A stretch of 20,363 nt of DNA from a virus. Every line of letters starts with the position of its first letter. Position 1 is the first letter of the stretch. Below the pieces are notes generated by a model, which saw nothing but the letters and a program-made list of their open reading frames with translations, was not told the origin of the DNA and ran no database searches. A program made the translations under genes and the position numbers. Shown in pieces: positions 3,867 to 20,363 of this stretch. The stretch lies in IMG/VR virus record IMGVR_UViG_3300019360_000045, positions 1 to 20,363 of that record; one strand, 5' to 3'.

Positions 3867-5111
3867 TTATTCTTTTTTGTTGTCAATGGGAAGCAAGTCA
3901 TTTTGGAGAGCTTCGAGCATTGGCCGCCAATATTTGATATATATTTTGTCTAAATCAAAGTTATCTAAGATATGTTGCCTACAATCTTTGGCGATAGTTC
4001 CATCGTCTTTTGTAAGCATCTCAAATATTTTTTCCATTTGAGTGTAAAGTGACTGCATGTCAGGCACAGCCCAATAACCAAACTGCGCGGAATACTCATA
4101 TTTTTGCACGTCTACTAACAAACCAGTCTTGCCGTCGACAATAAGTTCAGGCATAGCGGAGAAGTTAGTAACAATTACAGGTATTCCACATGCTTGGGCT
4201 TCAATACTTGATAGTCCAAACCCTTCTGTACGTGAAGGTTGTAACAAACAATCAAATACATTCATTACCTGGTTAATAACTGAATGATCAGAATGGATAG
4301 CAACGTTGTAGTTATCAGGTAAAAATACTTTGTCACCTATTCCAATCTCGTTTGCATAACGCTTAATAGGAAATGCGCCAATTGGGTTCTCAAAAGTGTG
4401 AATATATAATCCTGCATTTGGGTGTTTATCAGCAAACAGTTTAAATGCATCTAATGCTTCTTGGAAACCTTTTCTTGTTGGAATTTCTTTATTTGCACCA
4501 ACCATACCAAACAAAAACATGTCTTGTGGTATTTTCATCTTTTCGCGTATCTCCTTTTTGTTCATCGGATAAAAAATATCAGTTTTAACGCCCTCTGGAA
4601 TCATAGTTGAGCTATATCCTTTATCAGCTAGCCCCTTTCTGCCAAATTCAGCAAAGGTGAGAATTTTATAAGCGTAGTTAAGTTGCTGCGTTACAAATGG
4701 TTCAGCAGGAGAGTAGTGAACTGGAGTGTAGGGAATCCATACAGGAATTTGTGCAAGGTATGAAGAGTTTAACGTTGGTGTATCTTGCATAGTAAAATGA
4801 ACGTGTGCTCCCCAATCTTTCCCGTGAAGATAGAGTGCATCACCTCCGTATGCTTCACTCATTTTTGGATAACAGCGGATTCCTTCCCAATCTAAAAGAC
4901 CGCTCTCTAGTCCTGCAAAAGCAACACAGGCAAGTGGCCAACCGTCGTTACGCATTAAACGCAGAATCTCACGGGTAAATACACCATAGCCACTATTTAC
5001 CCATGGCGCATTGCTGCACCATAAAATACGCATATCCCTTCTTGCCTTAGCAAGTTTTTCTCTCCTGCGTGCTACTTTCTGTTTATGTTCTTTTTTCTTC
5101 TTTTTTGTCAT
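3867..5111 (-). CDS. Glycosyltransferase, GT4-like (GT-B fold)
   Basis: 414 residues from the ATG at 5111. The C-terminal donor-binding half carries the retaining GT-B signature: RTEGFGLSSIEAQACGIPVI at 294-313, with the EX7E pair E296 and E304, followed by PELIVDGKTGLLV at 321-333. The N-terminal half has ILWCSNAPWVNSGYG (29-43), the usual glycine-containing loop, and EGVKTDIFYP (173-182) at the domain linker. It should transfer a sugar from a nucleotide-sugar donor to an unknown acceptor. The first 26 residues are almost all K, R, E and A and are not part of the fold; they lie in an A-rich stretch that overlaps the upstream glycosyltransferase by 29 bases. A second possible start is the ATG at 5033 (Met27), just before the first beta strand and with AAGG close upstream. 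No membrane segment, so probably cytosolic. Confidence 0.85.
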   Translation of the reverse strand: MTKKKKKEHKQKVARRREKLAKARRDMRILWCSNAPWVNSGYGVFTREILRLMRNDGWPLACVAFAGLESGLLDWEGIRCYPKMSEAYGGDALYLHGKDWGAHVHFTMQDTPTLNSSYLAQIPVWIPYTPVHYSPAEPFVTQQLNYAYKILTFAEFGRKGLADKGYSSTMIPEGVKTDIFYPMNKKEIREKMKIPQDMFLFGMVGANKEIPTRKGFQEALDAFKLFADKHPNAGLYIHTFENPIGAFPIKRYANEIGIGDKVFLPDNYNVAIHSDHSVINQVMNVFDCLLQPSRTEGFGLSSIEAQACGIPVIVTNFSAMPELIVDGKTGLLVDVQKYEYSAQFGYWAVPDMQSLYTQMEKIFEMLTKDDGTIAKDCRQHILDNFDLDKIYIKYWRPMLEALQNDLLPIDNKKE

Positions 5112-5865
5112 CTGATATAAGCCAATCTATGTATTTTGCTACCTTTTCGTTAAACATGATGCGATATTTACCTTTCATTGGGTTATTTCCCCCTGCGAAA
5201 TGAACAATAACTATCTCTTTGTCTTCTTGATCAGGCCAAACACCATTTTTAGGTAAAATCAGTTTGTGTGTCGTAGAATCAACTCTGGGCTCTAGCTTCA
5301 TTTCAGGCTCCCATTTCTTTGATATAAGGCCGTGCCATTTAGGACCATCATCTAAAAATCTAACGTTATAATCACCAAAAAAAACAATGATGTTTAGTAA
5401 GTCTTGTTCACGCATTTGGTAATGGGGAAACATTGGCCCATGGCACAATCTGTTCCAGTGATCAACCAACTTTTTATTCTTCATTACTACAAAGCCACAA
5501 TTAACGTAACTAAGAGGATCTATATCCCAGACCTGAACTACATAATCTTTCATGTCTTTCGAGTTACTGTTTTGTACGACGGCTACGTCAAAGTCTCCTT
5601 CCCAGGTATGGCTTAATGGTCCAAAGATGATTTGATCAGCATCAAGTTTGATTACCGTTTCATATTCTTTCAAAAGCTGTGCTGCTATTTTTGGCGTTGC
5701 ACGATAATAGAAGTCAGGATCATTTTGAGCCTGCACTTGCTCTTCGTTGATAACCATGAGTGGCAGTTCTTCTTCTGTGTGAAATTTACGCAAAGAGTTT
5801 ATAAGTCTTCTTGCAAATTCGATATTCTTATTGTCTGCGATTGTAAATGCTACTACTTTCTTCAT
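5083..5865 (-). CDS. Glycosyltransferase, GT8-like (GT-A fold)
   Basis: 260 residues. It begins KKVVAFTIADNKNIEFARRLINSLRKF, a GT-A type first strand and helix. VIKLDADQIIFG (71-82) supplies the DXD metal and nucleotide-sugar site (D75-A-D77). YVNCGFVVMKN (120-130) matches the 'fNsGvllin' motif of GT8-like enzymes, EQDLLN (153-158) the 'DQd-lN' motif, and VHFAGG (221-226) the 'HF-G' motif near the end. These together support a retaining, metal-dependent sugar transferase of the GT8/glycogenin-like type. The length is normal for a single catalytic domain. Its ATG overlaps the acetyltransferase stop by four bases (ATGA), and its own end overlaps the next glycosyltransferase, so it belongs to a tightly coupled gene set. 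Donor sugar and acceptor are not predictable. Confidence 0.82.
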   Translation of the reverse strand: MKKVVAFTIADNKNIEFARRLINSLRKFHTEEELPLMVINEEQVQAQNDPDFYYRATPKIAAQLLKEYETVIKLDADQIIFGPLSHTWEGDFDVAVVQNSNSKDMKDYVVQVWDIDPLSYVNCGFVVMKNKKLVDHWNRLCHGPMFPHYQMREQDLLNIIVFFGDYNVRFLDDGPKWHGLISKKWEPEMKLEPRVDSTTHKLILPKNGVWPDQEDKEIVIVHFAGGNNPMKGKYRIMFNEKVAKYIDWLISDDKKEEKRT

Positions 5866-6362
5866 ATATATTTTTCTACAAATTTATTAATATCTAAAAA
5901 ATCATCTTTTCTTTCTTGAATTTCTATCGAATGCCAATTCCACCATTTTATTTTTAGTAGTTTTTCAACAGTTTCAGCATCAAATCTAATCCTTATTACT
6001 TTTGCTGGATTACCAACTACCACCGCATAAGGTGGGATATTGCCTTTTACTACTGCGTGCGCGCCGATAATTGCGCCATCTCCTATTTCAGTTCCAGACA
6101 TAATAACAGCATTTTGACCAATCCAAACATCATTACCTATTTGATAGTCTCCCATTCTCTCTGATTTCTCGCCATCAAAGAGCATATTTGTAGGATAGTT
6201 AGCTACATAATTTGGAAACCGTATACAAGGGTGGTTTCTAATATCTAGAAATTTAACGCCTTCTGCAATTTGGCAATACTTGCCAATTTTAATATATGGC
6301 TTTTCTCCTAGTCTTTCGTCAGAACCATCCATAAAGTAAGTATTTTTACCAATCTCGGCCAT
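5862..6362 (-). CDS. XAT-type hexapeptide acyltransferase (left-handed beta-helix)
   Basis: 166 residues. Hexapeptide repeats ([LIV]-G-x4) form a left-handed parallel beta-helix from about 23 to 38 and again from 73 to 125: YIKIGKYCQIAEGV, then YQIGNDVWIGQNAVIMSG, then EIGDGAIIGAHAVV. A loop between them contains RNHPCIRFP, in which His44 corresponds to the catalytic histidine of the XAT (xenobiotic/Vat-type) acetyltransferases, followed by NYPTNM as in the usual 'YP' trimer loop. The end VVGNPAKVIRIRF (115-127) is a family hallmark. It should be a homotrimer that moves an acetyl or other acyl group from CoA to a hydroxyl or amine, here most likely a sugar, given the glycosyltransferase neighbours. 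Its ATG shares one base with the TAA of the upstream gene. Confidence 0.88.
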   Translation of the reverse strand: MAEIGKNTYFMDGSDERLGEKPYIKIGKYCQIAEGVKFLDIRNHPCIRFPNYVANYPTNMLFDGEKSERMGDYQIGNDVWIGQNAVIMSGTEIGDGAIIGAHAVVKGNIPPYAVVVGNPAKVIRIRFDAETVEKLLKIKWWNWHSIEIQERKDDFLDINKFVEKYI

Positions 6363-6619
6363 TAGTCTGTCTTTTTACCTTTAGTTAATTTTTTAAGTTT
6401 CGACTCAGCTAACTTCAAAAACTTTCTAGTATCTGATAGTTGATTTTGGGCTTTAGCAATCTCAGAATAAGCCGCCATTTTCTTATCTTCTGGAACTTTC
6501 CTAAGCAATTCCTCGTTAATCTCAACAAACATCTCATTATGAGCTAATTCAGTTTTCCATCTATTAATAATTTCAATTAATACTTCTTCGTCGGTTAGTA
6601 TTTTGCCGTAAATACTCAC
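6362..6619 (-). CDS. Small helical protein in the glycan module, unknown
   Basis: 85 residues, strongly charged and predicted helical throughout (for example DEEVLIEIINRWKTELAHNE, then KAQNQLSDTRKFLKLAESKL), with a lysine-rich tail. I see no known motif. Heptad-like spacing in the second half suggests a short coiled coil. The GTG start at 6619-6617 is set by a good AGGAGG five bases upstream and overlaps the FkbM stop codon by four bases (GTGA); its own stop overlaps the acetyltransferase start. This tight coupling suggests it acts with the modification enzymes, perhaps as a partner or scaffold, but no function can be assigned. Confidence 0.6.
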   Translation of the reverse strand: MSIYGKILTDEEVLIEIINRWKTELAHNEMFVEINEELLRKVPEDKKMAAYSEIAKAQNQLSDTRKFLKLAESKLKKLTKGKKTD

Positions 6620-7296
6620 TGCTTCCTCCTTGCAACAAGCAGTGTCGCATCGTTTTTAACAGGTTTTACTTCAAAGCCGTTGTTTTTAAAGCCTTCCACT
6701 ATTTGATTTGGCTTTCTGCCTGCCCAAGAATGTACTTCAGTTAGGACCATATCTATTTTGTGCGCCACTCGTTCAAAGCCAGTACCACAAATTACTTCAA
6801 ATTCTGAGCCTTCGACATCAAGCTTCATAAAGTCAACGTGCTCGATTTTGTTTTCCTCAAATAGTTTATCAAGGGTAATCATAGAAACTTGTTCTTTACC
6901 CCAACCCTCCTGCCAACCAGCTGGTTTAGCTGAGTTCATGGTTTTGTTTGTAGGATTACTAAAAAAATCTACCGTTTTATTTTCATTTCCTACAGCTACT
7001 TGGACTGCTTCTACGTTAACAAGCTCATTTGCAACAATATTTTGTTGAAGTGACAAGAAATGTTCGGTTGAAGGCTCAATTGCATAGATCTTTTTTGCGT
7101 ATGGGTGTGCATAAATACTAAAGATTCCTACATGCGCACCAATATCTAAAATAGTTAAATCACGCCTACCTTCAAGGAAAGGGGAATAAACACGGTCTTT
7201 GTAGATTTCAGCCATGATGTGTCCCAAGAAGTTTTGTTCTATGGAACCTGAAAAGAAGATAGCTCGTTGTTTAATCTGCTGTACACTTGGTTGCAT
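6616..7296 (-). CDS. FkbM-family SAM-dependent methyltransferase
   Basis: 226 residues, a class I Rossmann methyltransferase. Motif I is TILDIGAHVGIFSIYA (48-63) with D51, G53, G57; motif II is AIEPS (72-76) with the ribose-binding E74. The FkbM hallmark VDFMKLDVEGSEFEVI follows at about 154-169, with D160, E162 and E165, and VLTEVHSW comes at 184-191. FkbM proteins mostly O-methylate sugars or other small molecules. The length fits a free-standing single-domain enzyme. It heads the coupled gene run that continues with a helical protein, an acyltransferase and two glycosyltransferases, so a glycan substrate is the natural inference. The start has no strong Shine-Dalgarno; a weak promoter-like sequence lies just upstream. 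Confidence 0.85.
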   Translation of the reverse strand: MQPSVQQIKQRAIFFSGSIEQNFLGHIMAEIYKDRVYSPFLEGRRDLTILDIGAHVGIFSIYAHPYAKKIYAIEPSTEHFLSLQQNIVANELVNVEAVQVAVGNENKTVDFFSNPTNKTMNSAKPAGWQEGWGKEQVSMITLDKLFEENKIEHVDFMKLDVEGSEFEVICGTGFERVAHKIDMVLTEVHSWAGRKPNQIVEGFKNNGFEVKPVKNDATLLVARRKQ

Positions 7297-9221: not shown

Positions 9222-9359
9222 TCAACTTTTAAACTTCTTTTGTAAATATTTAATCATTACTGCGCGTTGCCTTGGTGTTATTCCTGCAACTGCACACAAT
9301 TCACGCAAATCAAGCTTTCTATATTTTCTTCTTCTTGCGTTCGCCTGTTTTCGTCCCAT
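9222..9359 (-). CDS. 45-residue basic protein, possible helix-turn-helix
   Basis: An ATG at 9359-9357 opens a 45-codon frame ending in TGA at 9224-9222. It reads MGRKQANARRRKYRKLDLRE, then LCAVAGITPRQRAVMIKYLQ, then KKFKS. The second part has the spacing of a helix-turn-helix (LRELCAVAGITPRQRAVMIKYL: helix, glycine turn, helix), and the N-terminus is strongly basic, so nucleic-acid binding is plausible. It overlaps the end of the upstream gene by 41 bases in another frame, which suggests translational coupling. No good Shine-Dalgarno is seen. The protein-like composition and the absence of another gene in 9222-9318 support it. A +1 frameshift in the upstream gene's AAG/AAA-rich end would instead fuse the two; nothing proves that. 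Confidence 0.5.
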   Translation of the reverse strand: MGRKQANARRRKYRKLDLRELCAVAGITPRQRAVMIKYLQKKFKS

Positions 9360-9738
9360 CGAAATTTTGATCTCTCACAATATAACCATTTTTATCTAGC
9401 ACTACCAACGGGTCTTCATGCTTACTTGCTTGATCTGTTAGTTGATCTAAATAGTGTTTACCGAAGTAACCCTTTAATTCTCCATCTATATGCGCACGAG
9501 GGGAGAGATTTCTAAACTTCTCGCTGGTAATAAAATAGGATACCGCATCAGCACGCTCTCCCATTTTATCTTCCCACTCACGTAACTTTTTCTTCCTGTT
9601 CTCAATGTTGTTTTTCATCACAGATTGAATAATTCGCTTATTTCTTTCAGGATTAAAGTCTGGATTTCCATCAGGAATAACGGGTAGAAAAGACCCGTCA
9701 TCTAATCGTTGATTTGCATTTGTCAGATCATCATTCAT
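9319..9738 (-). CDS. Head-region protein after the capsid gene, unknown
   Basis: 139 residues, rich in N, D, K and R, mostly helical in the middle (NKRIIQSVMKNNIENRKKKL, then REWEDKMGERADAVSYFITS) and ending in a lysine run (GERKKKKI). No cysteine, signal peptide or membrane segment. I recognise no family. The position directly after the major capsid gene is where head completion, minor head or internal virion proteins are often found. The ATG at 9738-9736 has no Shine-Dalgarno: it comes one base after the 3' strand of the tRNA-like hairpin at 9740-9783. Initiation may therefore depend on that structure, on processing next to it, or on coupling with capsid translation. The next ATGs, a few codons on, are possible alternatives. 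Confidence 0.62.
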   Translation of the reverse strand: MNDDLTNANQRLDDGSFLPVIPDGNPDFNPERNKRIIQSVMKNNIENRKKKLREWEDKMGERADAVSYFITSEKFRNLSPRAHIDGELKGYFGKHYLDQLTDQASKHEDPLVVLDKNGYIVRDQNFDGTKTGERKKKKI

Positions 9739-9739
9739 G

Positions 9740-9783
9740 CGAGTGGGGCGGGAATCGAACCCGCCCTATTACACCATCACTCG
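9740..9783 (-). ncRNA. tRNA-like minihelix (T-arm plus acceptor-type stem, no D or anticodon arm)
   Basis: Six bases after the capsid stop codon the minus strand has CGAGTG (9783-9778), an 11-base single strand ATGGTGTAATA, GGGCGGG (9766-9760), the seven-base loop TTCGATT, CCCGCCC (9752-9746), and CACTCG (9745-9740). The two stems are perfect (6 bp and 7 bp) and directly stacked on the 3' side. The loop and its flanks (GGGTTCGATTCCC) are the canonical T-arm of a tRNA, including the invariant TTCGA. The single strand TGGTGTAAT recalls a tRNA D-arm 5' part, but the rest of the D arm, the anticodon arm and the variable loop are missing, as if deleted. There is no CCA. This is not a functional tRNA; a tRNA remnant, a processing signal or a captured T-arm are the options. 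Confidence 0.7.
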
Positions 9784-9789
9784 TTTCGA

Positions 9790-11049
9790 TTAACCTTTCT
9801 TCTGGGTTAATCTAAAGTTCGCAGCTGGCTTGTTGCAGAACAAATTAATAAACCAGTACATAGTTGCCTGATAACTAATTTTGTTTGCAATAGGAAGCAT
9901 TGAAGTAGAACTTGCTCCTTGGATCCAACCCATGTCAGAAACCTGACAGATTGTCCAAGTGTTCATGTTCATACCAACTACTTCACCATCTGGGACATCA
10001 AAGTCCAAAACAATTGCCACTGGTCCACGACCTGCATGGAAAGAAAGTCCTTCCCAACCTCCGCCAAGATCTAGGGTGTTTACCTCTCTTCGCATTGCTT
10101 GGAGAAGATCACCATATTTTTGGTAAAGAGTTGTGTTCATGAAGATCAAGAACAAGTCACTTCGGCTAGAGTATTCCTGTGCAGCAGTGTACTTTTCAGT
10201 AATGTGCTTCAAGGTTAATACTGCGCTTTCAGTTCCTATCTGAGGTATCCAGCTTGGAGTGCTTCGAGCCAAACCCGCATACAAATTAGTCCCTGTTCGG
10301 GAATCAAGTGCACGACGAGCACCTTGAATTTCAGCAGTTCCTGCTCCTTCACCATCAGCATCAACAATATAAAGCGCGTCATTAGCAGCAATTGCTGCAG
10401 CACCAGTAAGTTGAATACTTGTTCCTGTAACAGCAGAAATAGTGCCATGAACCGCACCGCCAGTGCCAATTCCTACGTGTTGTCCTGCTACAAAGTACTT
10501 AACAGGAGAAATGTCGTTATTGACAGTTCCGTAGTAATCGACTGGACGACCATCATCTAAGCTTGAGTTTGGATAAATCACTGAAGCTTCAGTTCCAGAA
10601 ACAGAACCTAATACTTGAGCTACAACTCCAAAACCGTCTGAGAATGCTTGACGATTGACTGCACGCGCAAAATCAGTTGATAAATCTTTTGCCTGACCAA
10701 TAAGTTCGTTTCTGACTGCTCCACGTCTGTTTTTGGTAGCATCAATAGCCATTTGAGTGATGTTAAACACACCAGTCATTATTTTGGCATCAACGCTTGC
10801 CTGTGCAGTTGTGGATTTACCAGTTACGGTTGTATTGTCGTCATTAGCAAGATTAGTAACACCTGAGTGTCTGCCTGTACGCATCGTTTGATAGAAAGTT
10901 TTGTTGAAAAACTCCATACCAGCATTTTTCTTCAATTTGTCGAAGAAGATGGTTTCTTGTGGAAGATTATCTTGAACAAATGGAGCAATAACCTTTTGCA
11001 AGGTATTGTTAATATTCAAGCCATCGGTATCTAAAACATTTACGCTCAT
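9790..11049 (-). CDS. Major capsid protein, HK97 fold
   Basis: 419 residues from the ATG at 11049. GGGGGTGA lies five bases upstream, which argues against the GTG three codons earlier that overlaps it. The N-terminal arm (VLDTDGLNINNTLQKVIAPF, then VQDNLPQETIFFDKLKK) and the following elongated segment, a helix-rich middle (RRGAVRNELIGQAKDLSTDF, then ARAVNRQAFSDGFG) and the C-terminal part with MGWIQGASSTSMLPIANK and YQATMYWFINLFCNKPAANF fit an HK97-type coat protein. Residues around 190-245 (YFVAGQHVGIG, then HGTISAVTGTSIQLTGAAAI) look like the small beta-barrel insertion found in several phage capsid proteins. No protease gene is seen nearby, so the N-terminus may not be cleaved, or the protease lies elsewhere. 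The upstream scaffold gene and the strong ribosome site fit a highly expressed structural protein. Confidence 0.88.
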   Translation of the reverse strand: MSVNVLDTDGLNINNTLQKVIAPFVQDNLPQETIFFDKLKKNAGMEFFNKTFYQTMRTGRHSGVTNLANDDNTTVTGKSTTAQASVDAKIMTGVFNITQMAIDATKNRRGAVRNELIGQAKDLSTDFARAVNRQAFSDGFGVVAQVLGSVSGTEASVIYPNSSLDDGRPVDYYGTVNNDISPVKYFVAGQHVGIGTGGAVHGTISAVTGTSIQLTGAAAIAANDALYIVDADGEGAGTAEIQGARRALDSRTGTNLYAGLARSTPSWIPQIGTESAVLTLKHITEKYTAAQEYSSRSDLFLIFMNTTLYQKYGDLLQAMRREVNTLDLGGGWEGLSFHAGRGPVAIVLDFDVPDGEVVGMNMNTWTICQVSDMGWIQGASSTSMLPIANKISYQATMYWFINLFCNKPAANFRLTQKKG

Positions 11050-11076
11050 TTTATTCACCCCCTAACTTATTAAAAA

Positions 11077-19487: not shown

Positions 19488-20000
19488 TTAGCGTTTCAAA
19501 TTAATATATTTAGGCACTGGTGTAGTAACGCACCAATTAACTATATATTTCATGTCAGATTTAGTCATTGGCCAATACGGTTGAATATTAGGAAATACCT
19601 CCATTAACTTTTTGTCATCGCCTGCAAAATGAGAAAAGCCGTCGTGTTCATAATCTTGATCTCTGCCTGAAGCAATCAAATTTACTGGTACTTGTTCGTG
19701 GTTTATATAATTTCTAATACCTTCGGCTCCGCGAAAAAGTAAAAATGGCGTAATTGAATATACAAAAGGAACTTTACCTTCTTCTGCCATACCAACTGCG
19801 GTTGTTACTGCTAGTAGTTCACTCGCTCCCACATTAAAGTATTGATCTGGAATATTGTCACGGATTTTATCGAACATACCATAGCCTAAGTCCGCAGTTA
19901 TCAACACCACATCTGGATTATCTACCATTGCATTATGAAGTTCATATGCAAAATAACCTCTGATGCTTTCGTGTCGTTCTTCAGGTTGTAATCTTTCCAT
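19488..20000 (-). CDS. Transketolase pyrimidine-binding (C-terminal) subunit, lacking the third domain
   Basis: 170 residues matching the thiamine diphosphate pyrimidine-binding domain of transketolases and DXS: SIRGYFAYELHNAM at the start, VVLITADLGYGMF (about 36-48), FNVGASELLAVTTAVGMAEE (about 74-93) with the conserved Glu that activates the cofactor, then PFVYSITPFLLFRGAEGIRN (98-117) and VNLIASGRD. The order and spacing are those of the family. It ends right after this domain, so the usual third (C-terminal) domain, some 120 residues, is absent. It overlaps the preceding N-terminal subunit gene by 20 bases. Together they should form one active site at the interface. No strong ribosome site, so coupling is likely. 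Confidence 0.85.
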   Translation of the reverse strand: MERLQPEERHESIRGYFAYELHNAMVDNPDVVLITADLGYGMFDKIRDNIPDQYFNVGASELLAVTTAVGMAEEGKVPFVYSITPFLLFRGAEGIRNYINHEQVPVNLIASGRDQDYEHDGFSHFAGDDKKLMEVFPNIQPYWPMTKSDMKYIVNWCVTTPVPKYINLKR

Positions 20001-20363
20001 AGTGTGCTTTTAAGCCTTCATTACCATTAAAGTTAGTTTGCGTTCGTATTATTCTCACATCAAGACAAAAGGCATGGAGTCTTTGCTCTAGTGTATCAGT
20101 ATTAATTTCTCCATATGCACCATAACCATTTGCCGATACTACTACCTTGAGATTATCCAACTTTAAATCTGCTTTGTTTCTTAATATCTCCCACCAAATA
20201 CCTTCTGCTAATGCACCGTCACTAGTAACACACCAGACATTTCTATCTCTATTGGCTAGTGCTCTACCAAAAGCTACTCCTGCTGCCAATCCCAAACTTC
20301 CCCCTGATACTTCAATATCATGTTCCCTGTCTTTGTGTTGATGCGTACCATGTTCTTTATGAA
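19981..20363 (-). CDS. Transketolase N-terminal (diphosphate-binding) subunit, 5' end outside the window
   Basis: The frame is open to the window edge; the apparent TTG start at 20295 is not the real one, since the reading continues upstream as HDIEVSGGSLGLAAGVAFGR, the 'ie-stGsLG-gl--a-G-A' motif of transketolases. WCVTSDGALAEGIWWEILRN is the thiamine diphosphate/metal motif (G-D-G in most members, here S-D-G), ending about 30 residues on in NLKVVVSANGYGAYGEIN with the metal-binding Asn. The protein ends 65 or so residues later, so it is an N-terminal subunit, not a full enzyme. It would transfer two-carbon units between sugars, or act on a related ketose. Presence beside sugar-modifying genes suggests a role in making an unusual sugar; this is inference. 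Confidence 0.85.
   Translation of the reverse strand, partial: HKEHGTHQHKDREHDIEVSGGSLGLAAGVAFGRALANRDRNVWCVTSDGALAEGIWWEILRNKADLKLDNLKVVVSANGYGAYGEINTDTLEQRLHAFCLDVRIIRTQTNFNGNEGLKAHYGKITT

Follow-up and report, generated by a model that had tools for sequence, protein, structure and literature searches.

Plant viral 3' UTRs such as those of TMV and TYMV carry pseudoknots upstream of a tRNA-like structure, and in mitochondria tRNAs punctuate polycistronic RNA. RNase P, which prefers U-1 and G+1, accepts minimal substrates that include pre-4.5S RNA and AT1-type hairpins built from an acceptor stem, a T stem and a T loop. The tRNA-like domain of tmRNA (RF00023) likewise dispenses with the anticodon arm. 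In MALAT1 and NEAT1, cuts by RNase P and RNase Z together with a 3' triple helix are established (PMC12941219).

Here we describe a tRNA-like minihelix, the T-element, that separates the capsid gene from the next gene in an uncultured phage and many of its relatives. Its layout is reminiscent of MALAT1 and NEAT1 with mascRNA and menRNA, in that the tRNA-like element immediately follows a U-rich element that may be triple-helical; an RNase P cut would leave the U-rich element as a protected 3' end, with RNase Z acting on the other side. However, MALAT1 is a vertebrate lncRNA, and there is no sequence relation: the phage element sits in a protein-coding mRNA, is ~44 nt long, lacks an anticodon arm and has a coding start right after it, its processing is one that we infer, and the U-rich pseudoknot is missing in the phage DNA with which we began. 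It shares with minimal RNase P substrates a helix of 12-13 bp, the T-loop, G+1 and R73-C74, but is a natural and conserved element of late phage mRNA, possesses an elbow-like GG linker and retains only C74 of the CC. As in mitochondrial RNA, a tRNA structure between two coding sequences is the proposed cutting signal; unlike there, no functional tRNA is released and the phage element cannot decode. The tmRNA domain similarly combines a consensus T arm with a stemless D-region, but our locus has no P2 helix, and neither a tag reading frame nor the tmRNA pseudoknot series is present. The plant viral structures differ further, since the element described here belongs to a dsDNA phage, occupies an internal junction, has no aminoacylation features and contains a canonical T arm that is not itself a pseudoknot.

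The capsid junction of the window

The window, by which we mean the whole 20,363-nt stretch analysed (positions 1 to 20,363 of IMGVR_UViG_3300019360_000045), encodes on its minus strand a major capsid protein of 422 aa (9790-11058, stop codon 9790-9792; PHROG 14242 and 9953, 'major head protein') and, next to it, a conserved charged protein of 139 aa (9319-9738). The latter matches no Pfam or PHROG family and has homologues in the same place in relatives. Reading along the minus strand, the capsid stop TAA is followed by 6 nt (TCGAAA), the minihelix (9740-9783), one C and the ATG of the downstream gene. The minihelix reads CGAGTG-ATGGTGTAATA-GGGCGGG-(TTCGATT)-CCCGCCC-CACTCG and consists of a 6-bp acceptor-like outer stem (5' strand 9778-9783, 3' strand 9740-9745), an 11-nt linker on the 5' side (9767-9777) and a T arm (9746-9766) with a 7-bp inner stem and a 7-nt T-loop. 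In tRNA numbering, the residues at the flanks are C-1 (C9783), G+1 (G9782), G73 (G9740) and C74 (C9739), and the stem pairing and the U-1/G+1 statistics of the relatives predict an RNase P cut next to 9783/9782. Folding of the plus strand recovered all 13 stacked pairs (-20.3 kcal/mol, z -3.95), and a fold of the minus strand within 71 nt returned the identical helix.

The initial annotation had described, from this DNA alone, a fully paired 44-nt element six bases past the capsid stop, made of a canonical T arm on a 6-bp acceptor-like stem, with the next gene starting one base later and without a Shine-Dalgarno. All of this holds, on the minus strand: the T arm is borne out by the fold and by a 17/17 match to the Rfam tmRNA T-arm consensus (E 0.0026), and the 15 nt before the AUG contain no Shine-Dalgarno. 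The annotation had noted the adjoining AUG without explaining it, and this proximity brings RNase Z or translation into the question of function.

Several familiar identities were considered and rejected. The element is not a tRNA, as a cloverleaf with an anticodon arm is absent, the linker has just 11 nt and ARAGORN reports no tRNA in the window. Nor is it a tmRNA, for which the match to RF00023 ends with the 17 nt of the T arm and scores 17 bits against a threshold of 47. It is also not terminator-like, which speaks against an intrinsic terminator.

The remainder of the window offers some context. The contig is a fragment, and no integrase was found among the window proteins scanned. At 3867-7296 and 19488-20295, beside structural genes, are glycosyltransferases, a hexapeptide transferase, an FkbM methyltransferase and split transketolase-like genes, and a distant relative, L012, contains ORFs of similar look. 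Gene content in these two genomes suggests that this phage group makes surface sugars.

Conservation of the minihelix among relatives

The capsid protein alone retrieved no relatives as a query, and bacterial genomes searched for the capsid gave no match. A terminase search found two distant phages. One of these, L012, has the gene order of the window and carries TGAAGGT-CACGGACTTTAG-GGCTAG-(ATCGTTA)-CTAGCC-ACCTTCA-C-ATG in the same place, an element alike in shape and different in its letters. Alignment-based capsid searches of IMG/VR brought in 51 further distinct junctions, or 52 with the window, whose own capsid relatives are 44-71% identical. At ~30 of the 52 junctions, the window included, a T-loop minihelix separates the capsid gene from one conserved downstream gene; the other ~20 have a plain hairpin or nothing in its place.

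A strict T-loop minihelix detector matched 19 of 42 capsid-to-next-gene junctions from the window and relatives and just 3 weak places elsewhere in 609 kb of the same contigs, an enrichment of ~350-fold (P ~1e-30). Because MAFFT gapped the acceptor strand when aligning the minihelices, a covariance model was built from equal-length members instead. Trained on six elements and run over 386 kb at a cut-off of E<=0.5, it yielded 20 matches, all at the capsid junction and 14 of them outside the training set. Standard pairs occupy 96.3% of cells, compared with 64% after shuffling and 42-57% after sliding of the partner strand, and double compensatory changes occur in 10 of 11 pairs (80 double-change cells observed, 23 expected). 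Where records with a match were scanned whole (18-49 kb), no strong site other than the junction appeared. The pairing, the double changes and the confinement of model matches to the junction identify the minihelix as a conserved RNA structure. It is kept by selection, its shape staying while its letters change. The earlier view that the element is kept rather than decaying is thus upheld by compensatory changes in both stems and by its presence at ~30 junctions, and the comparison of relatives that the annotation had proposed as a check found both the element after the capsid gene and covariation of its stems.

For L037, L043 and L060, minimum free energy folds of the single sequences favour other structures, and support for these minihelices is therefore comparative. 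One record, that of L027, contains a weak extra match to the model off the capsid junction (G006 contig C1, 31518-31558; 18.9 bits, E 0.02). Reconstructing presence of the T-element on the capsid tree requires 12 changes, which together with the ~20 junctions that lack it indicates an exchangeable module. Relatives without a T-loop include L034, L040, L044, L053, L054, L057, L059, L061 and L103, usually with a plain hairpin of 9-16 bp that, as read by eye, leaves 0-5 nt to the same start codon. Two distant, actinophage-like relatives, Microbacterium phage Shocker (L243, 2660-2790) and an uncultured podovirus (L244, 2760-2880), show, past the capsid gene, a plain GC-rich hairpin and then an ordinary Shine-Dalgarno.

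Letter conservation was examined in 30 elements comprising the detector matches, later contigs and a few relaxed cases; because this set was assembled partly by eye, its counts are less strict than the covariance-model search. The 12 nt counted from the T-loop were numbered as tRNA positions 61-72. Within the T arm, G53-C61 and C56 are invariant (30/30), U54 and A58 are each present in 29/30 and position 60 is U in 28/30, giving a T-loop consensus of UUCRANU. The stacked acceptor/T helix measures 12-13 bp across the family, and in the short-linker elements 9-12 nt stand where a tRNA would have its D arm, anticodon arm and variable loop. At the helix base, G+1 is found in 25 of the 30 elements and U-1 in 18 (background 26%), while R73 is found in 25, C74 in 26 and C75 in only 7. 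Since C74 is kept whether the AUG lies 1 or 2 nt after N73, it belongs to the minihelix and not to the start codon; as C75 is not conserved, only half of the RCC contact is retained. Positions 75-76 are mostly not CA, and a CCA end is present in only 4/30. Of 20 short linkers, 19 contain GG (mean 11.2, maximum 18 in composition shuffles). This conserved dinucleotide, at 9774-9775 in the window, could correspond to G18G19 of the tRNA D-loop and close an elbow. The initial annotation had taken TGGTGTAAT in the linker for the remnant of a decayed D arm, an interpretation that gives way to a functional linker, which fits the GG count better.

The tRNA outline varies within the family. L049 (4824-4901) has a near-complete one without a usable anticodon loop, and L091 (3840-3990) seemingly contains two tRNA-like folds in a row, of which the latter ends in CCA ahead of the AUG. 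ARAGORN called none of the family elements among the loci scanned. Rfam searches at relaxed thresholds of the window and eight relatives returned nothing beyond the T arm, bar a plastid 5'UTR match below threshold on the other strand of L031. When other viruses were scanned for the pattern from T arm to AUG, at least 82 places were found, at least 66 of which are ordinary tRNA genes upstream of an ATG; among the matches listed there was one weak short-linker case, and on that basis the minihelix looks family-specific. A lone mini-tRNA shape was seen in a different phage, L009 (IMGVR_UViG_2706795666_000001, 10360-10420, minus strand): GATATGT-TAC TGGTGTAAT TTAT-AAAGG-(TTCGATT)-CCTTT-ACATATC-A-CA, with 12 bp, A73 and C74. 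It stands about 40 nt before an ATG and, as far as seen, is not at a capsid gene.

The upstream pseudoknot

In most relatives, a U-rich H-type pseudoknot starts directly after the capsid stop and ends 2-5 nt from the minihelix. It is laid out as S1, a U-rich L1 (UUUUGG), S2, S1', an A-rich or structured L3, and S2'. The pseudoknots score 25.5 on average, against 7.7 in shuffles. For the S2 strand that ends 1-6 nt before the minihelix, pairing to the stop-proximal strand in the same locus scored 16.6, against 4.5 for the stop-proximal strands of other phages, and this search, started at the minihelix, recovered a pairing in 27 of 28 loci. Uridine makes up 68% of L1, and among S2 pairs 2-4, counted from the junction, 64 are U-A and 3 A-U. 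A U-rich L1 and U-A pairs of one orientation are what U.A-U triples would call for, and the pseudoknot may form a triple helix. The window and its closest relative, L025, have no such pseudoknot; with only the minihelix half there, pseudoknot protection cannot apply to them. Stop-codon readthrough promoted by the pseudoknot is unlikely, because the stop varies (TAA, TAG, TGA) and the distance to the next start codon is not fixed. Long-pseudoknot loci, among them L030 (4737-4826), L059, L056 and L096, share an L3 core, GAGAGG-AA ... GAA-A-ATAAR ... ACCT. Some of its positions are invariant, which pairing alone does not explain, and the core may act as a second module, for binding or catalysis.

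Possible roles of the minihelix

On balance, we lean towards a model in which host tRNA enzymes cut at the minihelix and so separate the capsid mRNA from the downstream mRNA, with the pseudoknot protecting the 3' end. The minihelix would be a punctuation mark in late phage mRNA that mimics tRNA, retaining only the part gripped by processing enzymes: the acceptor/T helix, the T-loop, the linker GG and R73-C74. The family has the stacked helix of ~12 bp with a T-loop that RNase P uses in its substrates, and it has the cut-site letters G+1, R73-C74 and the preferred U-1 as a statistic of the family. The elbow of tRNA, which is the part gripped and which we count towards the RNase P reading, relies on G18/G19 contacts (PMC4810234). 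We envision that host RNase P would cut at the 5' base of the helix and, in most relatives, create a capsid mRNA whose new 3' end lies 2-5 nt past the pseudoknot, where it would block 3' exonucleases. RNase P alone leaves the 1-2 nt spacing to the AUG unexplained. The family also possesses the features of an RNase Z substrate, namely an elbow and acceptor helix without a 3' CCA, and a cut after N73 may release an mRNA for the next gene that starts 1-2 nt before its AUG, nearly leaderless; of the two cuts, this is the less certain. The initial annotation had already suggested that the end of the capsid mRNA may be cut or protected by tRNA enzymes of the host. This idea gains comparative support from the conservation, the compensation in both stems, the RNase P-type determinants at both flanks and the pseudoknot of the relatives, while the cutting itself is a prediction from these sequences.

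The tight AUG spacing makes a ribosome-facing start element the main rival. Here the minihelix and its linker GG would present a tRNA elbow to the ribosome, for example to the L1 stalk or E site, and set the adjacent AUG in the P site for initiation free of a Shine-Dalgarno, with no cutting at all. In 21 of 30 elements the AUG follows N73 at 1-2 nt, a strong Shine-Dalgarno precedes 3 of 51 next genes compared with 19 of 48 capsid genes, and the ribosomal E site does recognise the tRNA elbow. Yet this account leaves unexplained the conservation of G+1, U-1 and R73-C74 and the fixed spacing of 2-5 nt to the pseudoknot, and a stable helix 1 nt before an AUG would normally block the 30S subunit; we consider it unlikely. 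A simpler proposal is that any stable stem at the start codon would dampen or couple the next gene's translation and protect the mRNA from RNases, the T-loop form being one among several interchangeable stems. The ordinary hairpins of several T-loop-less relatives, close to the same AUG, fit this idea, as do the GC-rich hairpins ahead of a normal Shine-Dalgarno in the actinophage-like relatives. Such an insulator, however, needs no invariant T-loop, linker GG, 12-nt ruler or R73-C74, all of which are kept in ~30 diverged elements, and we judge it quite improbable.

The initial annotation had also raised the options of a decaying tRNA-gene remnant and of a captured tRNA 3' end that was once an attachment site. 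L049, a nearly complete tRNA altered in its D and anticodon arms, and other elements that keep a different hairpin where the anticodon arm would be, are what a remnant might look like. However, stem pairing is held by compensatory change while sequences diverge, the same junction is occupied in some 30 genomes, and the window holds neither a full tRNA nor a second copy of the minihelix. For an attachment site one would expect sequence identity with the 3' end of a host tRNA, beside an integrase, whereas the stems here diverge with compensation. As a present role, either option sits badly with a structure kept during sequence turnover, and we regard both as very improbable. Descent from a tRNA of which all but the top half has been lost is nevertheless the likely history, given the extra arms of several elements and the near-full outline of L049.

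The T-elements constitute a new family of RNA elements in an uncultured phage clade, outside tRNA, tmRNA and any Rfam family tested. In the open-licence papers searched, no phage element of this kind had been described before, and we know of no smaller natural tRNA mimic. Taking the model of tRNA-enzyme cutting to its full extent, these phages could possess a MALAT1-like mRNA 3'-end module, in which a triple-helix pseudoknot caps the message, RNase P and RNase Z excise the minihelix and a leaderless AUG follows; we advance this complete version only tentatively. Dozens of diverged natural variants within the family make the recognition rules of RNase P and RNase Z directly testable. Armless tRNA mimics are also worth searching for in viral genomes, as tRNA finders miss such elements, judging by ARAGORN on the loci scanned. 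If true, the model would reveal tRNA-enzyme processing of a phage structural mRNA and a convergent bacterial counterpart of MALAT1 3'-end formation, and would show how a phage sets the level of its capsid mRNA apart from that of its neighbour within one transcript.
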